DNA from: Polytrichum commune
Lineage: Eukaryota; Streptophyta; Polytrichopsida; Polytrichales; Polytrichaceae
Assembly: GCA_950295325.1 (NCBI GenBank)
Contig: OX485805.1
Coordinates: 25,653,501-25,717,500 of the forward strand
Direction: 5' to 3'
DNA length: 64,000 bases
The notes under the pieces were generated by a model. It searched no databases. It was not told the origin of the DNA and worked only from the letters and a program-made list of their open reading frames with translations. The translations under genes were made by a program, and so were the position numbers. Shown piece after piece: positions 1 to 8,861 of the stretch (position 1 is its first letter; each line of letters starts with the position of its first letter).

Positions 1-1435
1 AAGAAGAGAAAGAGTACATCTAAGAAGATTGACAAGAGAGGTAAACAAAAAACCTTAACCTAGTGAGTTTTAAGGTAGACATACTTCATAAAATAGTTCA
101 TTTAGATGTACTATCAAGGTCTAAAAATGGATTGATGGACCATGGAGTTATGTAAATGTGACAAGTAATGAAACATACCTTTGGAGTTGATGTCTGCCAT
201 GCTTATTGTGAATGTGCTACTCATTTTACTAGTCTGAATGAAGGCACTAGGTGAACAAATTGTGCAGCAATTTAGCAATGTAGCAAAGGTTAGATACAAG
301 ACCAAATTTATACCTGCAATACAAAGGGTTTGGCATCTAAATCAAAAATCAGCCAGATGGGTAAAAGGAGACCTGATTGAAGATCCCCTTACTAAGATGT
401 GGGGCTGCATTGTTGCGAACTCACACATTGCAAGAAGAACAAAACTTCCTTCTACACCATCATTTTGCAAGACAGAACTCACACAAGCATCGCATCCTCT
501 GTTGTGGCTGCGATAGGACCACATGACTCCATAGACCATCCCACACAAAACAACCTGCATGCCAGAACATAGAAACAATCAATTTCAGCGAATCCCCAGA
601 TTATTTTTTGTTAGTTCACCTTGGATTCTGCTACTACTACAACAATTATAAGTTGCATTATGTAAGACAAACTCATATTGCATCTATCACAATGTGCAAA
701 TTTGCAAGAGGGCACCCAACCACCTGAAGTTTAATCTTCTATGAACTCTTGCAAGCCTATACAACAGTCTCAGTAGATTTACAATGGCCTGAAAATTACA
801 TATTGGAGGGAAAACATCAATAAGGGGTTGAGCTAAGTGATCACAGATTCAGGTGCCAAGCTAAATCATCACGTGCATGTACGACAATGATTCATTCCTT
901 GTATCTCAAGTTTTGGCCATTACATAAACTTCATGATGTAACATGCCCAAGAGATAGTGACAGTATACATGCCTTAAGTTCCATATTTCCATTAGTCTCT
1001 CCATTGCGCCTTCAACTAATTGGCTTTAACTTGATACACAAAACGTTGTCCTAAATCTCCAAAATTGAAGTTGAAATGGAGCAGCAAAATATTTCTTTAT
1101 CACCTCTGGGTTGTATTTCACATACAACACATAGTGCGTGTATCTTGACATGCCTTTGCACAGAGATCTGCATGTTTAGAACTTCCCTAAAGTGTTGTTC
1201 CAGAAACATTGGCTCCTCCTACTGCCATCACAGTCCAGACACAAATCATCGAGACAGCATGAAGTCATTTATCATTGACCATTCATCCTATTTTACTTGG
1301 CCACCAGATGGAATACTTGAATGCCCGGAGACATTTATGCCCCATCCTCTGAAAGATGATTAGAATTGATTCCTACATATCGTACATGCCAAAGAATACA
1401 AACAGTATGTGGAATATCCTGGATGGGAATGTGAT
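1..1435. other. No gene recognised; region beyond the aminopeptidase P 3' end
   Basis: Short open frames exist on both strands (for example 238-516 plus and 342-578 minus), but none resembles a known family and they overlap one another. The stretch next to 1436 probably includes the 3' untranslated region of the aminopeptidase P exons that end there. Nothing else can be supported. Confidence 0.5.
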
Positions 1436-2487
1436 CTATCCAATAGCTTGTGTCTGATTACTTGAAGGTGCCCATTGTGAGGACTCCCCTACTTTTGAGA
1501 TTGGTCTTGTGTTTCTTTGCAACCATGTCCAGGCATCTCCTTTCACGAGTGGGGAAACCTGCACCATATGAATTTGACGATTGCTTAGTACAAGTGTATC
1601 CTTGAAGGCAAATGCTCTCAAGAAACAAACAAGTTGAACAAGGTGAAGCAGTGTATGCATGCAACAATCAGCTCATACCTTGTTCCAAACTTCAGAGTGG
1701 TAGTCATTGACCCATTTGATTTCATTCTCCGACATCAAATTCAGATCCAATAGACTTGTCTGCAAGCCAATAAAAACACAGGACCCATGTCCAACATTTC
1801 AACAAATCAAACTCCAGTTAGAAGTGGAAGTCCTTGGAGTATGGTATTAAAGTGTGTTACTCACAGAAAATGCTGCCTCTGATGCTCCAAACATGCATCC
1901 GCATTACTCTCTGGAGCTAATGGCTGCAAACTCTCACTGAGCCTGTGAGGTGATAAATAGGAAAATATGAGAATCTCACCTGGATGGGTACAAATGTGAG
2001 TCGCTCAAATCCAAGAAATGTAACTCCTCCAAAACGGTTTGCTGTTTCTACCTCTTTTATAATAAGCAGATTCTGCACACATACATGATAAGAATGAAAG
2101 GTCGGCAAATACTATCAAACTGCTGCTGACAACACATCCAATCTTACATGGACTGCAACAGGAGTATTAGCATGTACTAAGTAATGACATAATATTTGGT
2201 TTGATCAGTTTTCTCAATAACCTACAAGGATATCAAACATTCTACTGATGGGCACTTCAAATGATGCTTGATTTCAACCAGCCCTCAACCTCTGCATTTT
2301 AAAATCCATTTGTGCCTGCCAGAGGTCCATACCTCTATGCGGATGCCAAAAGCACGATCTTCATAGTAACCTGGTTCATTGCTGATAATCATCCCTGCTT
2401 GCAACCCTGTCATGTTGCCAAATCGCGCACTCACACTCTGGGGCCCTTCATGAACATTCAATGCCGCTCCCACTCCATGACCCGTTC
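1436..2487 (-). pseudogene. APP1: Aminopeptidase P (Xaa-Pro aminopeptidase), last four exons only
   Basis: Aminopeptidase P removes an N-terminal residue ahead of proline and uses a two-metal pita-bread fold. Four consecutive exons are readable: about 2487-2333 (includes GHGVGAALNVHEGP and ISNEPGYYED, the metal-site region), 2072-1980 (KEVETANRFGG, FVPIQ), 1759-1679 (NEIKWVNDYHSEVW) and 1558-1436 (VSPLVKGDAWTWLQRNTRPI, then stop). All junctions are GT-AG and in phase 0, so the C-terminal part looks intact. At about 2485 the expected HGTGHG motif lacks one base, giving a frameshift and a TGA. Upstream of that there is no more aminopeptidase sequence, only pieces of other genes. I infer a truncated gene. 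A sequencing error plus upstream exons outside the mosaic is less likely, because the preceding bases do not match the family. Confidence 0.8.
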
Positions 2488-2522
2488 ATGCAGTGGTAAC
2501 AAGAAAAAAACGATCGTTCCAC

Positions 2523-2576
2523 GGTGTGTAATAGGTTACCCACATCACGTCCAAGTTGGAGAGAGTGAGCCATTCC
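2523..2576 (-). repeat. 54-bp copy of the BAHD exon segment at 3245-3298
   Basis: Bases 2523-2576 and 3245-3298 are identical by eye. In the BAHD frame both encode EWLTLSNLDVMWVTYYTP on the minus strand. The copy lies between the DXS exon and the aminopeptidase exons, and sequence on both sides differs. The perfect identity suggests recent copying, for example template switching while the mosaic was assembled. Confidence 0.85.
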
Positions 2577-2887
2577 CTTTCCAATCTGTTCAAACATTAT
2601 AAAACATTCAGGATCTCGGGGGGCAGCAAGTATCACAAATAGTGCAAGACATCATAGTTTGCGTGGTGATAATGAGCACGATGAGCAAACGTGATGGGGT
2701 CTGACCTCAAGAGGAACGCCCCTGTAATTTCTAATCTAACAGTTCTCTAAAATTGAAGACCAATCTAACAGTGAAGACTGATCTCTACTGCAGTAAACCA
2801 TAGCAAAGTAATGTATCGACAAGCAGGTCTCAATTGCGGACAACAGTCATGCATATTTTGGATTTATTGTCAGGAAAATTGGCATAC

Positions 2888-3050
2888 CTGGTCATAGCCT
2901 TGTTGAAGAAAGGATGAATATATTGCACAAAAGGGCCGCATTCCCTCAGTTGCCAACCCAGCTGCAAAGGTCACTGCATGCTGTTCAGCGATACCGACAT
3001 CGAAGGTCCGCTCTGGGAAAAGTTTCTGGAAGTGGTTCAGTCCAGTACCA
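2888..3050 (-). pseudogene. DXS: 1-deoxy-D-xylulose-5-phosphate synthase (DXS), single exon fragment
   Basis: DXS joins pyruvate and glyceraldehyde-3-phosphate in the plastid as the first step of the MEP isoprenoid pathway. About 54 residues are recognisable, running from [16 protein letters not shown] through [20 protein letters not shown] to [14 protein letters not shown]. This is the conserved region of the transketolase-like central domain. The fragment ends at 2888 with a good GT donor, where plant DXS genes would continue with VVHDV. Its 5' side is not a splice site: it runs into BAHD exon sequence within a shared GGAGGTGGTACTGG stretch and in a different frame. No other DXS exon was found, so this is a captured or rearranged fragment and not a gene. 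Confidence 0.85.
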
Positions 3051-3438
3051 CCTCCGTGAACACAGTTCCCGCATCGTTGCAATGCAGAATCGTCGTGGCT
3101 CTTTCATCTCCTCCATCACGCATCGCCACCCGCCCGGCCAGAGGATAGAACAACACCAAGGCGTCCGCCAAGGAGTCCTTCAGATGTTGCACGACGGAGG
3201 AGAGGGGTGACGAGATTTGGTCGGCTGTGTAGATGCAAAGCAGGGGTGTGTAATAGGTTACCCACATCACGTCCAAGTTGGAGAGAGTGAGCCATTCCTT
3301 CTCGGCTGGCGTCGCTACAGAAGGTTTGACGAAGCTTGTGGTAATGTTCTTCAACTCCTTCCCCAACAGTCGATCTTCAAATATGAGACTGCTGTCTTCG
3401 GTGCTGGCCTTATCCTGCTTCTCCACCTCGCCCTCCAT
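3037..3438 (-). pseudogene. BAHD acyltransferase, N-terminal exon fragment
   Basis: BAHD enzymes (HCT-like) transfer acyl groups from CoA thioesters to alcohols or amines. The 133-codon frame begins with ATG at 3438 and reads like the family N-terminus: VKPSVATPAEKEWLTLSNLDV, then SSVVQHLKDSLADALVLFYPLAGRV (the family LxxSLSxxLxxFYPLAGR pattern) and [10 protein letters not shown]. It stops just after crossing into DXS sequence. The catalytic HxxxD and the C-terminal DFGWG, normally in the following 300 residues, are absent. There is no open fusion because the DXS part is in another frame. The copy is most likely a non-functional fragment, although a start codon and a possible upstream region remain. 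Confidence 0.8.
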
Positions 3439-3502
3439 GCTTGCTGAGTCACTTTGTCGGGAATGCTTCCAACTTGCTCCCTCTCACAGCAGCTTCGCAC
3501 CT

Positions 3503-4480
3503 TCACAGCGGGCATCGATTAAGGGTTAACTTCAGCAAAAACATGGCCACTGTCTCTTTCATCAGATCCACATACATACTCACTCTCATCCGATCCCGAA
3601 GTACAGAGATTTGGACATTGAGACAATCAATCAACGTCCAGATCCACACAACAATTTCAAACAAAAAAACAGGGTCACAGGAGAAATCTCGGTGAAGAGG
3701 GTTCAGTGAAGGGTTCAGAACGGTGTCTCTCTCGCTTCCCGTTGAAGGCGTTGAGCTCTCGCTTCCTGCTGCTGCTCCTAGACCTTGATCTGACCCATTC
3801 GAGCTTGCCTTCACATGTCGACTCTCCACCTCCGCCCATGGTGATGTCGAGGAGCTCCGCAGGGGTTTCGGAAGGAAGCGGAGGCGGGGGCTAGAGAGGG
3901 CGGGGGTGAGAGAGGGCGGGAGCGGAACGGACAGATTTCGACGAGTCTGTCAACCATTTTTTCGCTTTTCGACAGCTGGGCCTTTTAATAATAATAAAAT
4001 TCGACAATTATTTAAAAATTTTAATTATCGTCGAACTGGCCTATCACATACGGTATATGACAATCATTATATTCAATATCAAAAAAAATGTTTTGAAATG
4101 TTCTTACTTTCTAACCTTGCAACTTTTAATTTCAAATGGACAATGCTAATTTCCATGTGAAAAAAAGGTTGGAGCCTAATATAGGGGTTAATAACTACAA
4201 ATGGGGAAAACTATTAAACTCCTTACACCTAAACATCCAAGAGGCCGATTATGAACCTCGGGATTTCGTATAAAGGGAGTTTAAGATTACTTATGAATAT
4301 TTTAAGCTTTGTAATGTCAAAAGTTATCATATCTAAACTTAAACCCAATTATCATAGACATCGTTTCAAATGGAGCAGAATAAACATAGTTTAAAACGAA
4401 TCATAAAACATATTGAGCTCACATATGCAATCTAGACTCAAATACATACCATGTACATTCAATCACCTACATGCGGCCTG
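3503..4480. other. No recognised gene; unrecognised minus-strand frame and AT-rich spacer
   Basis: A minus-strand frame at 3503-3829 (108 codons, no ATG at its left end) includes a hydrophobic stretch (PVFLFEIVVWIWTLIDCL) but matches no family I know. It lies directly upstream of the BAHD fragment and could be part of the same mosaic or a 5' leader. From about 3960 to 4480 the DNA is AT-rich, with no visible gene. Confidence 0.4.
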
Positions 4481-4552
4481 AACACGTTGTGCCCTGGCCA
4501 AAGGCCGAAGGGTTTGTGTTCAGATTACAATCCAGGATCTATAAGGCTTCGT

Positions 4553-4612
4553 ATATGATTTCACATATGATTTCACATATGATTTCACATATGATTTCAC
4601 ATATGACTTCAC
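4553..4612. repeat. 12-bp tandem repeat, five units
   Basis: The unit ATATGATTTCAC is repeated five times head to tail, the last with one change (ATATGACTTCAC). It is non-coding and lies in the spacer upstream of the syntaxin gene. Confidence 0.95.
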
Positions 4613-4779
4613 TTCACTTTTGTGTTTTCAATAAGTTCCACTAAGAATGAACTCTATACCTTAAAACAAATTGAATAGTATTATTTCAACACTTGTATAC
4701 CGAGTGCACAAACAGTCACATTTCCCATGTAGAAGCACCCTTGATCCTTTAAGGGTTAGTAAAAACACGATGATTTAAG

Positions 4780-5034
4780 GGTCACTTTACACACGGCCCA
4801 AGGGCCGTGACCATGTAATTTTGAGGGCCCATGATTCTCATACAAAGACCGTACCACTGACATGGTTTGCGGATATTTGTGTCAAACCTACCCTTTGAAA
4901 GTGGACCTGACACAAATTCTAACAGACCATGAAACATTCTTTAGTCTGCCATGTAAGAATCCATGTAGACTTTCCCAGTTGTGATAATTTCTTTGGGCCC
5001 TTACGCCTTCACCTTCTAGTGTGAAGTGAACTTA
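4780..5034. mobile_element. Possible MITE relic with TTTACAC-type ends
   Basis: The left end (AGGGTCACTTTACAC) and the inverse of the right end (GTTCACTTCACAC) are partly complementary. Both resemble the ends of the better-defined TAA-flanked elements elsewhere in the window. A perfect palindrome, CACGGCCC-AA-GGGCCGTG, lies just inside the left end. The match is imperfect and the target duplication is uncertain, so this is a tentative call. Confidence 0.4.
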
Positions 5035-5233
5035 GATGGTTTCGGCCTTTTCAATCGGTGAGAGATCTTATTAGAATGCTATGGTCACGGGCATTCAGTC
5101 TCGTGTGTGAAGTGCCTCTTTTAAAATGGCATAAAAATTAGACAAGCCATTTTCAGTTGTAAAGGACTATAGAAACACGTGGCATGTTGGTCTCTAAATT
5201 AGCAAGCCCCCTAAATGATAACCAGAAAAAGTG

Positions 5234-5240
5234 TATAAAT
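5234..5240 (+). promoter_or_regulatory. TATA-like box upstream of the syntaxin gene
   Basis: TATAAAT is followed by GC-richer DNA and lies about 790 bp before the syntaxin ATG. If used, it would imply a long leader, possibly with an intron. Several short upstream ATG frames (for example near 5314) lie in between. No transcript evidence is available. Confidence 0.35.
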
Positions 5241-6029
5241 AATGGGTGGTGGGGGCCCACCACACCCAACGTTTCAACGCTGCCGGGAGCGCACGGGGAA
5301 CGCATGAGAACCCGTGGAGAACGCAAATCGAACCCATAAGGAACAGGATGGGAACACATTGGGAACGACAATCATGAGCGTCAGAGGAGCTTGGTTTCTG
5401 CACTTCGCCTTCGCAGTTTCTTCTTCAGAGAGCTCGTCGCAAGGCTCGCAAGCGAACCACTCACCGTCATTGCCACGCGCTTCCCGGCCTCTCGATCTTG
5501 TACAGCTTAACGGACTCGCCTACATCAGAAAGCATTCGACGCATCATCTAACGAGCATTTTTTTCATCTATTTCTGACCGAATACCGTCCAGTATTGACT
5601 GCGTAGGCACCTAAGAGAGAACCCTCGGGGTGTGGTGACCGAACCCTAGCATCGTTCGCATCGCATGTTACTTGCGTCTCAACATCGAGATTGAGCTTTC
5701 GGGGTGGGTTTATCATCATTTTCTGAACCTACGCCTACGCGTCTGGAGTTTCGTTTCTGATGAGCAAGCTCCGGTTGCTGCCACTTGTGCACCGCGATCT
5801 TGGATGGTTGCACAGGGCGAGGGTTTCCTTCTTGGGCTGGGACACAGATTTGGTTGTTAACGACGTAACGGTGTCGAGAGGAATTTGAGAGGTGGCAGAG
5901 AATCGCAGTGGGTCTTGGAGGAGAGGATGAAACCCTAGGCCATGCGTTCACTCCTCGTTGACATCAGTCTTCCTGCGAGGACGGGGGTCTTGAGAGTGGT
6001 GTAAGGTAGGGTTTCAATTGACGTTTGAT

Positions 6030-8861
6030 ATGGGCCCGTTACCGTCAACGTCGGGTCGGGATCGAACTTCGGAGTTCCACGCCATTGCAGATCGGTTGAG
6101 GAAAGCACACGGTCCGATCCCCTACGCTAATGGTGGTCCCAATGGGACAGTAGCAAATGGTCATGGAAGTAGCGAGTCTTCGCGGTTGTTGCAGCCGCAG
6201 TCGCAGCCGCCAACGGGTGGTGGTTCCCTGCAGTCGGAGTTCAGCAAACGTGCGAGCCAGATCGGGCTTAGTATTCACCAGACATCTCAGAAGCTGGCCA
6301 AGCTTGCCAAATGTGAGTTCATTCTGGTCAGTGGAAGATTGTGTGCTTGTCTGTATGTTTGTCTTTGTTCAAGTTTCATGGTGACTGACGTCGAGATCTT
6401 ACTCTCCTTAGAATGTATGGCAGAGGCAATGATTTTGTTTTCATCTGAGCTGAGGGAATATCATCGAAGGCCTTGTTTCAAGGCGTCTGGTTGCTAAACA
6501 TGAATGGTTTGTGATTTATAGCTGAGTGCACATCTCATACCGGAGGAGATATTGAAATTCATGTGGTTTGGAGAGACGATTTTTCAATAATCAGAATGAT
6601 CTGCCATGTTTGTGGTTCAGAATCAAATTTTTGTCGAATGTGGGGAATGTGAGTGGCTTGTGCTGTCAATGTCGCGCCCTGGGGCAGTTTATGTCGGGTA
6701 TTTTCTTGGAAATACATCGAGGTTCTTCGAGGATCTGCAGCTTGCTGAGGGTTTCCCAGAGAGAGAAAGAGTGAGCATTGCAGGAAACTGCAAATCTGAT
6801 TAGTTACAAAATGGATATTTCGACTACGAATGTGGAGAAGTAGCTGGTCTCAGCTGCACCTTATACTCTGGTCACCAGGGTGGTCACACAAATTGGGGTA
6901 TTTTCTAAGTTGTCTAAATTTGCAATCAGAGTAAATCATTATTGTCTATGAATCTTTGTCAGGAGCATGCACTGCTCCATAACGGATGTTGCCTAGATAT
7001 TATAAAATGGGACTGGTGCCCAGTTTATCAAGCCAGGTTAAATCTTGATTGAGCTATCTGTTGCAAGTTGTCTGGAGTTAGTCTTGTGTAATGCCAACCA
7101 ATGAATGTCAATTGTGCATGGTTCTGAATAAATCCAACTGTACTCCAAATGGTTGATAGCCAGAGGAGGGCCATCTCAGAGAGCTCTCTGGACTCCTCTC
7201 GTAACTTCCTGACATTTGCTATTTTAGATGTTAGTATCTCTGAAGAAGCAGATGATTTACATTGCGGGGTGTTGTGCAATGTTTTGCAGTGGCAAAGCGT
7301 ACTTCAATGTTTGATGACCCAGCAGTTGAGATTCAGGAGCTGACATCAGTTATTAAGCAGGACATTACGGCACTGAATGCAGCTATTTCTGACTTGCAAT
7401 GCCTTTGTGATTCACGAAATGAGAATGTGAACAGAACCAAGCACAGTAGTGAACATTCAACAACGGTTGTTGATACACTAAAGAGCCGTCTCATGAACAC
7501 AACAAAGGAGTTCAAGGATGTTTTAACCTTGCGAACAGAGGTATGAACAATCTTCTTACAGGGCAGGAACCACTATCCAGTTTTGATGGTGCACTTATGC
7601 TAACAAGCTGTTAGTTCAGCCCTTTTCTAGCAGGGTATTACTTTGAGCAGAAGCATTCATCTTATAGTGGGATGGGAGCTGCGAGTTGAGAATTTAGTCA
7701 TGTGTCTCTGTATTGTACCACTTATTCGATAGTGTGCTAATTTTTATGTCCTTTTCTTGCAGAACTTGAAAGTCCATGAGAATCGGCGGCAGTTGTTCTC
7801 AGTATCACCTGCAAATACACAAAACAATGCCTATGCACGGCGAGGACCACTAGTTAGTGCTGCCCCTAGCTCCTCAAATGCAAATGTTGAGTCAGCCCCG
7901 TGGGGCACAACAAGAAATAATGAGCTTTTTAGCTCAAGGTAGTTGCAACCCCTTTTTGTTCTTTATCCTGTGTAACCACCTGAATGTTATCTTTAATGTT
8001 TCTGAAACTGGATTTAGTAAGATATGGACTCGACCTCTTTTTTCTTGCCTTTTTAGCTTTCCATGCCAATTTTTACTGCCCCAGAATCCTTGATTCTATA
8101 CGCCAAGGCAATGACTCCAAATTTTTGACATCGATAATTTCCCGGGTGTCAAATCACAGGCGGCGCCATCAACTTGATGGACCTGATAAGCTACAGTCAC
8201 AAGGGCGATTGCAGCAGCAGATGGTACCTGTACAGGACAGTTATATGCAAAACCGTGCAGAGGCTCTTCAGAATGTGGAGTCTACAATTGTGGAGCTGAG
8301 CAATATTTTCTCGCAGTTGGCAACTATGGTTGCTCAACAAGGCGAAATTGCAATCAGGTACATAATTGTCATTTTGTTGGTCTTACTTAAAGTCAAGTGA
8401 CCCCTTTTCATCAATCTCTTTCAAGTTTTTCTTCATGTTAAATGATTTTAAATAATAATAATTTAATTCCTTTTCCTTTATCTATCTTTTTCAGTGTAAG
8501 ACTGAATAATAAGCATGTGCAAATCCCTGTTTCTTTTCTGGTGACCTGTATCTGAAGTGTTGGTGTTTTCAATACTATCAAGGACAATGTCACTGTGTTC
8601 TAAAGAATGTCTTCTTTATTATATGCAATTGGTAAGTGATAATGAATTTAGAAGTCTGGTTGTTTGCTAATTTTTTTCTTTTTTTCTGTTCATCATTTCA
8701 GGATTGACGAGAATATAGATGAGTCTCTAGTGAATGTGGAGGGAGCACAAGGACAGTTACTGAAGTACTTGAATGGCATTTCATCAAATCGGTGGCTTAT
8801 TTTCAAAATTTTCATGGTTCTGATTACTTTTCTGATCATTTTTGTTGTCTTCATAGCTTAG
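6030..8861 (+). CDS. SYP31/SYP32: SED5-type Qa-SNARE syntaxin (SYP31/32-like)
   Basis: This Golgi t-SNARE mediates ER-Golgi and intra-Golgi vesicle fusion. Five exons join in frame: 6030-6312, 7290-7540, 7763-7938, 8160-8357 and 8702-8861 (355 aa; the family is about 340-360). All introns are GT-AG. The start ATG at 6030 gives MGPLPST. DRTSEF follows at about residues 10-15, the short peptide by which SED5 proteins bind the SM protein SLY1. The SNARE helix spans roughly residues 266-325, with the central zero-layer glutamine at Q297 (VAQQGE). A single C-terminal anchor (WLIFKIFMVLITFLIIFVVF) ends one residue pair before the stop. A Habc-type N-terminal domain fits between them. The gene appears intact. 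The SYP31/32 subfamily is secure; which paralogue is not. Confidence 0.96.

Follow-up and report, generated by a model that had tools for sequence, protein, structure and literature searches.

A gene-fragment mosaic in the moss Polytrichum commune lies within a pogo-like transposon and was probably built by interrupted gap repair

In a 64,000-bp stretch of the Polytrichum commune genome (the window: C3:25653501-25717500, contig OX485805.1, in an assembly of 408 Mb and 64 contigs, seven of which measure 42-78 Mb), we found that a mosaic of host gene fragments lies inside a terminal inverted repeat (TIR) transposon. We propose that the mosaic is the cargo of a pogo-like element and was made by repeated interrupted gap repair with template switching, a reading to which we give a probability of about 0.65. 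The evidence comes from the ends of the element, its transposase frame and its donor loci, together with a sister copy on C5 that has a recognisable target site, carries some of the same cargo at a different site and has a different centre.

The element, its ends and its transposase

The transposon measures 6,178 bp from TA to TA (C3:25651378-25657555, window -2122 to 4055), its left third lying upstream of the window. It was revealed by a C5 locus with matches to window 1-429, 429-535 and 3426-4060 and none in the middle, and extension upstream gave the ends. These are 26-nt inverted repeats, TACCG...CGGTA (24-26 nt across the family), and their length agrees with the short TIRs of the pogo superfamily (<=40 bp in most families). 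With <=3 mismatches allowed, a search of the genome gave 20 sites for the end pattern and none for a reversed control pattern. An outer TA is present at 20 of the 21 family ends examined, the exception being the right end of the C3:46.37M copy, and the flanks outside the TA differ between the two sides of family copies.

The C5 sister (C5:17677098-17682242) shows how insertion took place. Its flanks, joined with a single TA (302 bp), correspond to C3:3546126-3546427 at 100% identity, and match four further places at 92-100% and two at 87-88%. Three of these paralogous sites were fetched and are uninterrupted, lying inside a dispersed repeat that is ~98-99% alike over longer flanks; therefore, the C5 sister inserted at a TA with a 2-bp duplication. 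The window element also has a TA at both ends, and no empty paralogous site for it was found in a genome search of window 1-7000, the left flank being outside that search.

Between the left end and the cargo there is an open frame of 590 codons from stop to stop (L006:2792-4564, C3:25651791-25653563), with the first ATG at codon 38 and no internal stop. It matches Pfam DDE_1 (PF03184; E 2.9e-13), and a catalytic triad chosen by eye from the motifs (D267, D390 and D428 of the frame) gives a predicted DD37D spacing, which is no more than compatible with the Lemi family. Neither a PDB sequence search nor a comparison with NCBIfam gave anything useful for the transposase. The frame of the C5 sister has one stop; of the changes between the two frames, 9 are synonymous and 14 of another kind (ratio 0.40, from a small number of events). 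The window element is a young pogo/Tigger-like TIR transposon, possibly still autonomous to judge from the stop-free frame.

These features also bear on the class of element. A sequence-only reading of window 1436-3438 had attributed the mosaic to a gene-capturing element of the Helitron or Pack-MULE kind, or to repeated template switching, and had seen neither Helitron ends nor long MULE ends. The capturing mobile element and the template switching, the latter in view of the microhomology excess described below, have stood, and the inverted repeats are indeed short; the left end, 2.1 kb upstream of the window, was beyond its view. The two named classes have not stood. Pack-MULEs are recognised by MULE TIRs and target duplications of 8-11 bp, and this candidate was rejected since the TIRs here have 24-26 nt and the target is TA only. 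Helitrons have neither TIRs nor target duplications and are marked by a CTRR hairpin at the 3' end and by Rep/Hel; a Helitron was rejected because TIRs and TA are present and the transposase is of the DDE_1 type; no separate search for a CTRR hairpin was made. Helitrons and Pack-MULEs both carry captured gene fragments in plants (PMC13317346; here and below, articles cited by PMC number are represented by the sections considered), but the short inverted ends, the TA target, the DDE_1 transposase and the flanks of the six copies with both ends seen, which mismatch where the 9-bp duplications proposed by the sequence-only reading would lie, leave capture by either of them with a negligible probability.

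Just beyond the right end, window 4775-5120 is a dispersed repeat with at least 27 copies at 77-80% identity, and window 4541-4612 holds a short tandem array of ATATGATTTCAC units. Upstream of the element, L006:577-868 consists of two tandem 148-bp copies, 99% alike.

Cargo pieces and donor loci

The cargo occupies window 193-3823 and comprises 13 pieces from seven unlinked donor loci on C1, C2 and C6 (Table 1), which were located by genome searches of window 1400-3560 and then 1-7000, followed by alignment of the fetched donors. Twelve of the pieces are 94-100% identical to their donors over ~3.5 kb and one, of 117 bp, is 83% identical; judged from the alignments, this identity is far beyond chance. 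Window 3824-3862 was assigned neither to a cargo donor nor to the right backbone. The donors include genes with recognisable domains, namely BAHD (Pfam Transferase), DXS (Pfam Transketolase_C and Transket_pyr, NCBIfam dxs) and aminopeptidase P (Pfam Peptidase_M24). No Pfam domain above the cut-off was found in several further donor frames or in the large frame of C1:56600.

Donor alignment bears out most of what had been read from the letters. The BAHD, DXS and aminopeptidase P pieces are all sense on the minus strand, with parent genes elsewhere in the genome (on C2, C1 and C6, respectively), and the four aminopeptidase P exons fit the donor open frames L001:2076-2327, 2880-3104, 3223-3348 and 3349-3582, the first of which, the only one tested against Pfam, matches. 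The 54-bp BAHD repeat is exact, being 100% identical both to the donor gene and to the element's own BAHD copy, and may derive from either. The joint between DXS and BAHD lies inside GGAGGTGGTACTGG (window 3046-3059, minus strand) with a microhomology of exactly 5 nt, CCTCC. Starting at the ATG at 3438, the BAHD frame extends over 133 codons and terminates shortly after the joint; therefore, there is no in-frame BAHD-DXS fusion. Donor alignment further added the flanking pieces at 193-334, 343-427, 429-964 and 3625-3823, the transposon ends at -2122 and 4055, and one jump within the donor in each of the DXS and aminopeptidase P stretches.

The cargo was copied as DNA, with introns retained in the aminopeptidase P and DXS pieces; introns and non-coding flanks have 97-99% identity to the donors. 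An RNA route, through retroposition or reverse-transcribed fillers, would agree with the single orientation of all strand-assigned fragments of the window element, but it is ruled out by the introns for the aminopeptidase P and DXS pieces, and there is no poly-A at the joints beyond the donor's own. Overall we consider it scarcely credible.

Table 1. Features of the window element (window coordinates) and cargo of other family copies.
Feature	Position	Strand	Donor or match, identity and remarks
Left terminal inverted repeat, partner of the right one	-2122..-2097		outside the window
Transposon backbone shared by the family	1..195 (whole left backbone -2122..195)	+	~92-99% to other copies; cargo begins directly after
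3' end of transposase open frame	1..63	+	rest upstream of the window; DDE_1 match
Captured EF-G (GTPase) pieces	193-263, 278-334	-	C2:48469688-48469900; 97%, 96%; donor EF-G TIGR00484; strand is donor sense
Captured piece	343..427	-	C1:42615030-42615114; 94%; strand from donor open frame only
Captured pieces	429-844, 842-964	.	C2:33374852-33375497; 98%, 98%; donor gene without name
Captured aminopeptidase P 3' region	973-2265, 2259-2522	-	C6:12179590-12181544; 98%, 98%; introns included
Second copy of BAHD piece, 54 bp	2523..2576	-	same as window 3245-3298; 100%
Captured DXS pieces	2575-2733, 2743-3055	-	C1:19006947-19007861; 99%, 97%
Captured BAHD acyltransferase first exon and 5' flank	3048..3611	-	C2:55342133-55342696; 99%
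Captured pieces of gene with SR-rich open frame	3625-3704, 3707-3823	-	C2:64044197-64044654; 97.5%, 83%; strand from donor open frame only
Right backbone, ending in the TIR	3863..4055	+	~80-99% to other copies
Right terminal inverted repeat GTCGAACTGGCCTATCACATACGGTA	4030..4055	-	last TA taken as target-site TA
Family copy	C1:53857914-53862992		cargo C5:43758323-43760664, 97%
Family copies, counted as one locus (shared outer flanks)	C3:46.29M and 46.37M		cargo C5:43758323-43760664, 97%
Family copy	C7:29.41M		cargo C3:33839600, 96%; C5:17894039, 98%
Family copy, read as one element broken by later insertions	C5:28.94-28.97M		cargo C5:17893411-17896013, ~96%
Family copy	C4:20482289-20484564		cargo C3:6037031-6038600, 91-96%
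Family copy	C1:20.40M		cargo C2:6320114-6322533, 96%
Family copy	C2:30.45M		shares cargo of C1:20.40M copy; sequence not fetched
Family copy	C1:47.57M		cargo C1:24273089-24275141, 96%

Joints between the pieces

The window element has 12 cargo joints. Five of them are free of filler and share exactly 3, 4, 0, 2 and 5 nt, a sum of 14 against 3.5 expected (simulated P 0.0005). When four joints specific to the C5 sister are added, giving nine filler-free joints in both copies, a count that omits the C5 joints identical to those of the window element and all filler joints, the sum is 22 against 6.3 expected (P 0.00004). Some joints connect parts of a single donor: the C2:33375 pieces meet in a jump inside the donor at a CAC microhomology, and in aminopeptidase P ~400 bp of donor are skipped at a TGAT microhomology. 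In the window element five donors were copied with part of the donor skipped, every skip being forward, and all seven within-donor jumps of the two copies together run in that direction.

Seven fillers (six from the window element, one from C5, the 1-nt filler at 428 being omitted) were tested for a local template. The 9-nt DXS filler between 2733 and 2743 belongs to a stretch of 11 nt that recurs at window 2762-2772 (P 0.04), and the C5 filler has a local 16-nt match (P 0.013). The 14 nt between the EF-G pieces, counted as a filler, may instead be an indel, since by eye they partly resemble the donor sequence that immediately precedes the second piece.

A sister copy with the same outer cargo and another centre

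The C5 sister shares much of the cargo of the window element and carries in addition C1:56600403-56601685. The two copies have different flanks and share four cargo joints with identical fillers. Over the six shared pieces, 11 of the 15 differences from the donors are common to both, two being private to the window element and two to C5. With different sites and shared joints and differences, loaded elements must have moved after one capture. The same observations weigh against an assembly artefact, which the sequence-only reading had named as a possible source of the junctions: the aminopeptidase P, 54-bp BAHD and DXS joints each occur once in the assembly, as an artefact would allow, but four cargo joints, fillers included, are found in two insertions on different chromosomes (which speaks against an error at those four), the two ends of the element match each other, and the C5 sister has uninterrupted sites. 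We therefore regard an artefact as very improbable.

The copies differ in the middle. In C5, the C2:33375 piece ends where the window element runs on colinearly with the donor, and the BAHD piece starts 378 bp later than in the window element; between them lie 1,283 bp of C1:56600 DNA with a single substitution in 1,282 sites. The simplest reading of these alignments is that the C5 centre was lost and recently replaced. C5 has also kept 565 bp of C2:33376-33375 cargo that is missing from the window element.

In the window element, the outer cargo (EF-G, C1:42615, C2:33375 and the first of the two C2:64044 pieces) shows 21 substitutions against its donors in 829 sites and the inner cargo (aminopeptidase P, DXS and BAHD) 27 in 2,608 (Fisher P 0.003). 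With plant substitution rates of 0.65-1.3e-8 per site per year, rough ages would be ~1-2 million years for the outer cargo, several hundred thousand for the inner cargo and a few tens of thousands for the C5 centre. The window element and the C5 sister differ at 39 of 3,180 sites. We considered that both centres had been replaced after the sisters split, and dropped this idea since the divergence between the inner cargo and its donors is about equal to that between the two sisters; so the aminopeptidase P, DXS and BAHD pieces may predate the split.

Assembly by interrupted gap repair

We propose that breakage within the element, or at the place from which it was excised, would be repaired by copying inward from both element ends. 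Synthesis would then be interrupted, and the new ends would anneal to or invade short matches in unrelated genes, from which copying would run for tens to hundreds of bases and might jump along the donor or to another gene, until a final joining, at times with a short templated filler. Since copying would proceed inward from both ends, new DNA would go into the middle and older cargo would be pushed toward the ends. Later transposition would spread the loaded element. Interrupted gap repair with template switching fits ends that stay constant while the middle is replaced, donors that are not linked, jumps that run forward, the microhomology and some templated fillers, and excision is the most likely trigger for the gap.

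Several observations weigh against this proposal. No excision event was seen, and the trigger is inferred. Seven of the 12 joints in the window element carry fillers of 1-14 nt, without microhomology, and one filler-free joint is blunt. A local template is absent for four of the seven fillers tested; the C2:64044 filler at 3705-3706, tested as a widened 20-nt stretch (3705-3724), has a weak template match (P 0.10), and the templated C5 filler adjoins a donor that is internally repetitive. The P values are uncorrected for multiple tests. The outer and inner groups were chosen after seeing the map, with piece 3707-3823 (83%, many indels) omitted, and selection acting on the exons of the donors can also make the identity gradient steeper. 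As to the transposase, pogo elements have an N-terminal DNA-binding domain of the HTH_Tnp_Tc5 or CENP-B type, and the HTH_Tnp_Tc5 match here (E 0.036, 14.5 bits) is under the Pfam cut-off of 22.2, and possible activity of any family copy is predicted from the frame only.

The closest alternative keeps the template-switching patchwork and changes only the trigger, the break arising where a replication fork stalled or where a resident element is fragile (the gap-filling/FoSTeST model of PMC8277862). The joints of the window element would look the same, and for such events in animals that article describes microhomology and internal breakpoints, with multicopy carriers under FoSTeST. Its single-copy events differ from ours in that the gaps have a median of 4.6% of the element, whereas here the replaced middle is large, and in that 57% lie within 15 kb of the donor, whereas here carriers are found at several unlinked sites. 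Neither difference is decisive, and we hold this origin of the break to be unlikely yet a serious contender.

In a second alternative, two neighbouring insertions fuse around host DNA and are then mobilised jointly, as in the model for Pack-CACTA and other Pack-TYPE elements (PMC8903248). Single-donor cargos of ~2 kb could arise in this way, and the three-ended copy on C1 described below indicates that nested insertions occur. Such fusion predicts element ends beside the donors and is disfavoured because none was found: the stretches of 1.6-6.5 kb fetched around the 14 donors of the family contain no family end (best 8-11 mismatches of 24), and the nearest of the 20 end sites to a donor of the window element is ~0.58 Mb off (C2:49050185). 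Moreover, seven donors on three chromosomes would take many rounds, and neither the within-donor jumps nor the 54-bp repeated BAHD piece are predicted. We consider this origin improbable, and interrupted gap repair remains our preferred reading.

The family as a whole

Nine copies were found to have the left backbone, which includes the transposase and measures 2.0-2.3 kb, and ten the right end, of ~130-200 bp; the C4 copy keeps only 270 bp of the left backbone and the C3:46.29M copy ~340 bp, and the right end of the C7 copy was not found. All ten insertion loci that were compared with the genome, directly or via a cargo-sharing copy, hold DNA matching other host loci (Table 1). The genome search counts are lower bounds, so that a cargo-free copy may exist, and the end sites C7:21344634 and C2:49050185 and the C3:46.270M copy were outside the cargo search. 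Fourteen donors are recognised in the whole family, of which C2:33375, C5:43758 and C2:6320 have no gene name; C3:17951302, an 82% match beside the C7 copy, was not counted. The C5:43758 cargo at two insertion sites has 24 differences in common, with 16 and 22 private. The CNGC cargo carried by the C7 copy and that of the C5-28.9M copy have 7 shared differences, with 7 and 17 private, and may stem from one capture or from two. The assignment of the CNGC donor comes from an exon just outside the captured stretch, which matches plant CNGC structures.

The donors show an apparent strand bias. All six whose strand is fixed by homology (EF-G, aminopeptidase P, DXS, BAHD, CNGC and EamA) are antisense to the transposase, and among the strands called from open frames C1:42615, C2:64044, C3:33839 and C3:6037 are antisense and C1:56600 is sense. 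In total, 10 of 11 strand-assigned donors are antisense (two-sided binomial 0.012), a pattern noticed post hoc in a count that leaves out the three donors without gene name. We suggest, tentatively and with less confidence than for the origin of the window mosaic, that this self-encoding pogo-like family might act as a continuous gene shuffler, in which ends and transposase stay fixed and a central cargo bay is rewritten on moving, from strand-biased donors.

Some copies have a complex structure. C1:47568045-47572721 (L012) has three family ends, the second left end lying inside the transposase 3' region at a TA, and is nested or composite. At C3:46.27-46.37M (L010, L014 and L021) there are three family copies with outer flanks shared pairwise, which indicates local duplication and not separate insertions. 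The cargo of three copies contains high-copy short elements of ~370, 390 and 515 bp (L011, L015 and L033), which are ~94-99% alike genome-wide and resemble young families of miniature inverted-repeat transposable elements.

Other pogo-like transposase frames, at 38-64% identity, are many among the matches listed, several of them without stops (e.g., C6:32719067, C4:37005568, C2:61806494 and C5:40752480), and four equal-scoring frames lie within 80 kb at C2:668428-747358. From these frames, pogo-like elements seem well amplified in this plant.

Significance and relation to known systems

The family is a good natural record of how elements pick up genes. It offers 14 donors, recent joints, a centre replacement that can be polarised in a sister pair, uninterrupted paralogous sites and a stop-free transposase frame in the same element, so that the gap-repair idea can be tested both base by base and by laboratory experiment. 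There is a warning for annotation as well: where a rule calls any transposase-matching element simply "autonomous", gene-capturing elements can escape notice. That TIR elements capture genes is already known, and multi-donor chimeras occur in Pack-MULEs. For a plant pogo-like family with captured genes that is both multi-donor and transposase-bearing, we found no report in the open-access literature searched.

The pogo superfamily, and Lemi within it, shares with the window element the DDE_1 domain, the TA target and TIRs below 40 bp, and DD37D falls within the DD29-42D of Lemi (PMC7386202, PMC7325037). The reported pogo elements measure 1.2-5.2 kb, in contrast to 6.2 kb here, of which ~3.6 kb are host DNA, and for land plants little amplification of the superfamily is reported; captured genes are not mentioned in the sections of these two articles considered. 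A precedent in animals for the pogo superfamily comes from the Pack-TIRs, which include TcMariner/Tigger elements such as Pack-Tigger1 of gibbons and, like the window element, have host DNA within TIR elements and microhomology at the joints (PMC8277862). In contrast to the multi-donor, unlinked cargo found here at several sites, most of them were judged transposition-independent, and more than half are near their donor.

The Kaonashi/KIU MULEs, a transposon group with coding genes and a captured host domain, are alike in this respect, but they are non-TIR MULEs with an Ulp1-like gene, whereas the window element carries gene fragments; chimeric transcripts are also mentioned there (PMC13317346). 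Similar in organisation are the Pack-TYPE elements (Pack-MULE, Pack-CACTA, Pack-PIF, Pack-hAT and Pack-Mariner, the Mariner ends used being those of Stowaway), TIR transposons with host gene fragments for which newer DNA has been proposed to lie in the middle and of which the CACTA and Mariner types are low-copy (PMC8903248). As in Pack-TYPE elements, host gene DNA lies between class II TIRs in the window element; in contrast to their non-autonomy (no transposase), it has its own stop-free frame, predicted to encode a pogo-like transposase, and its cargo comes from seven donors without family ends nearby.

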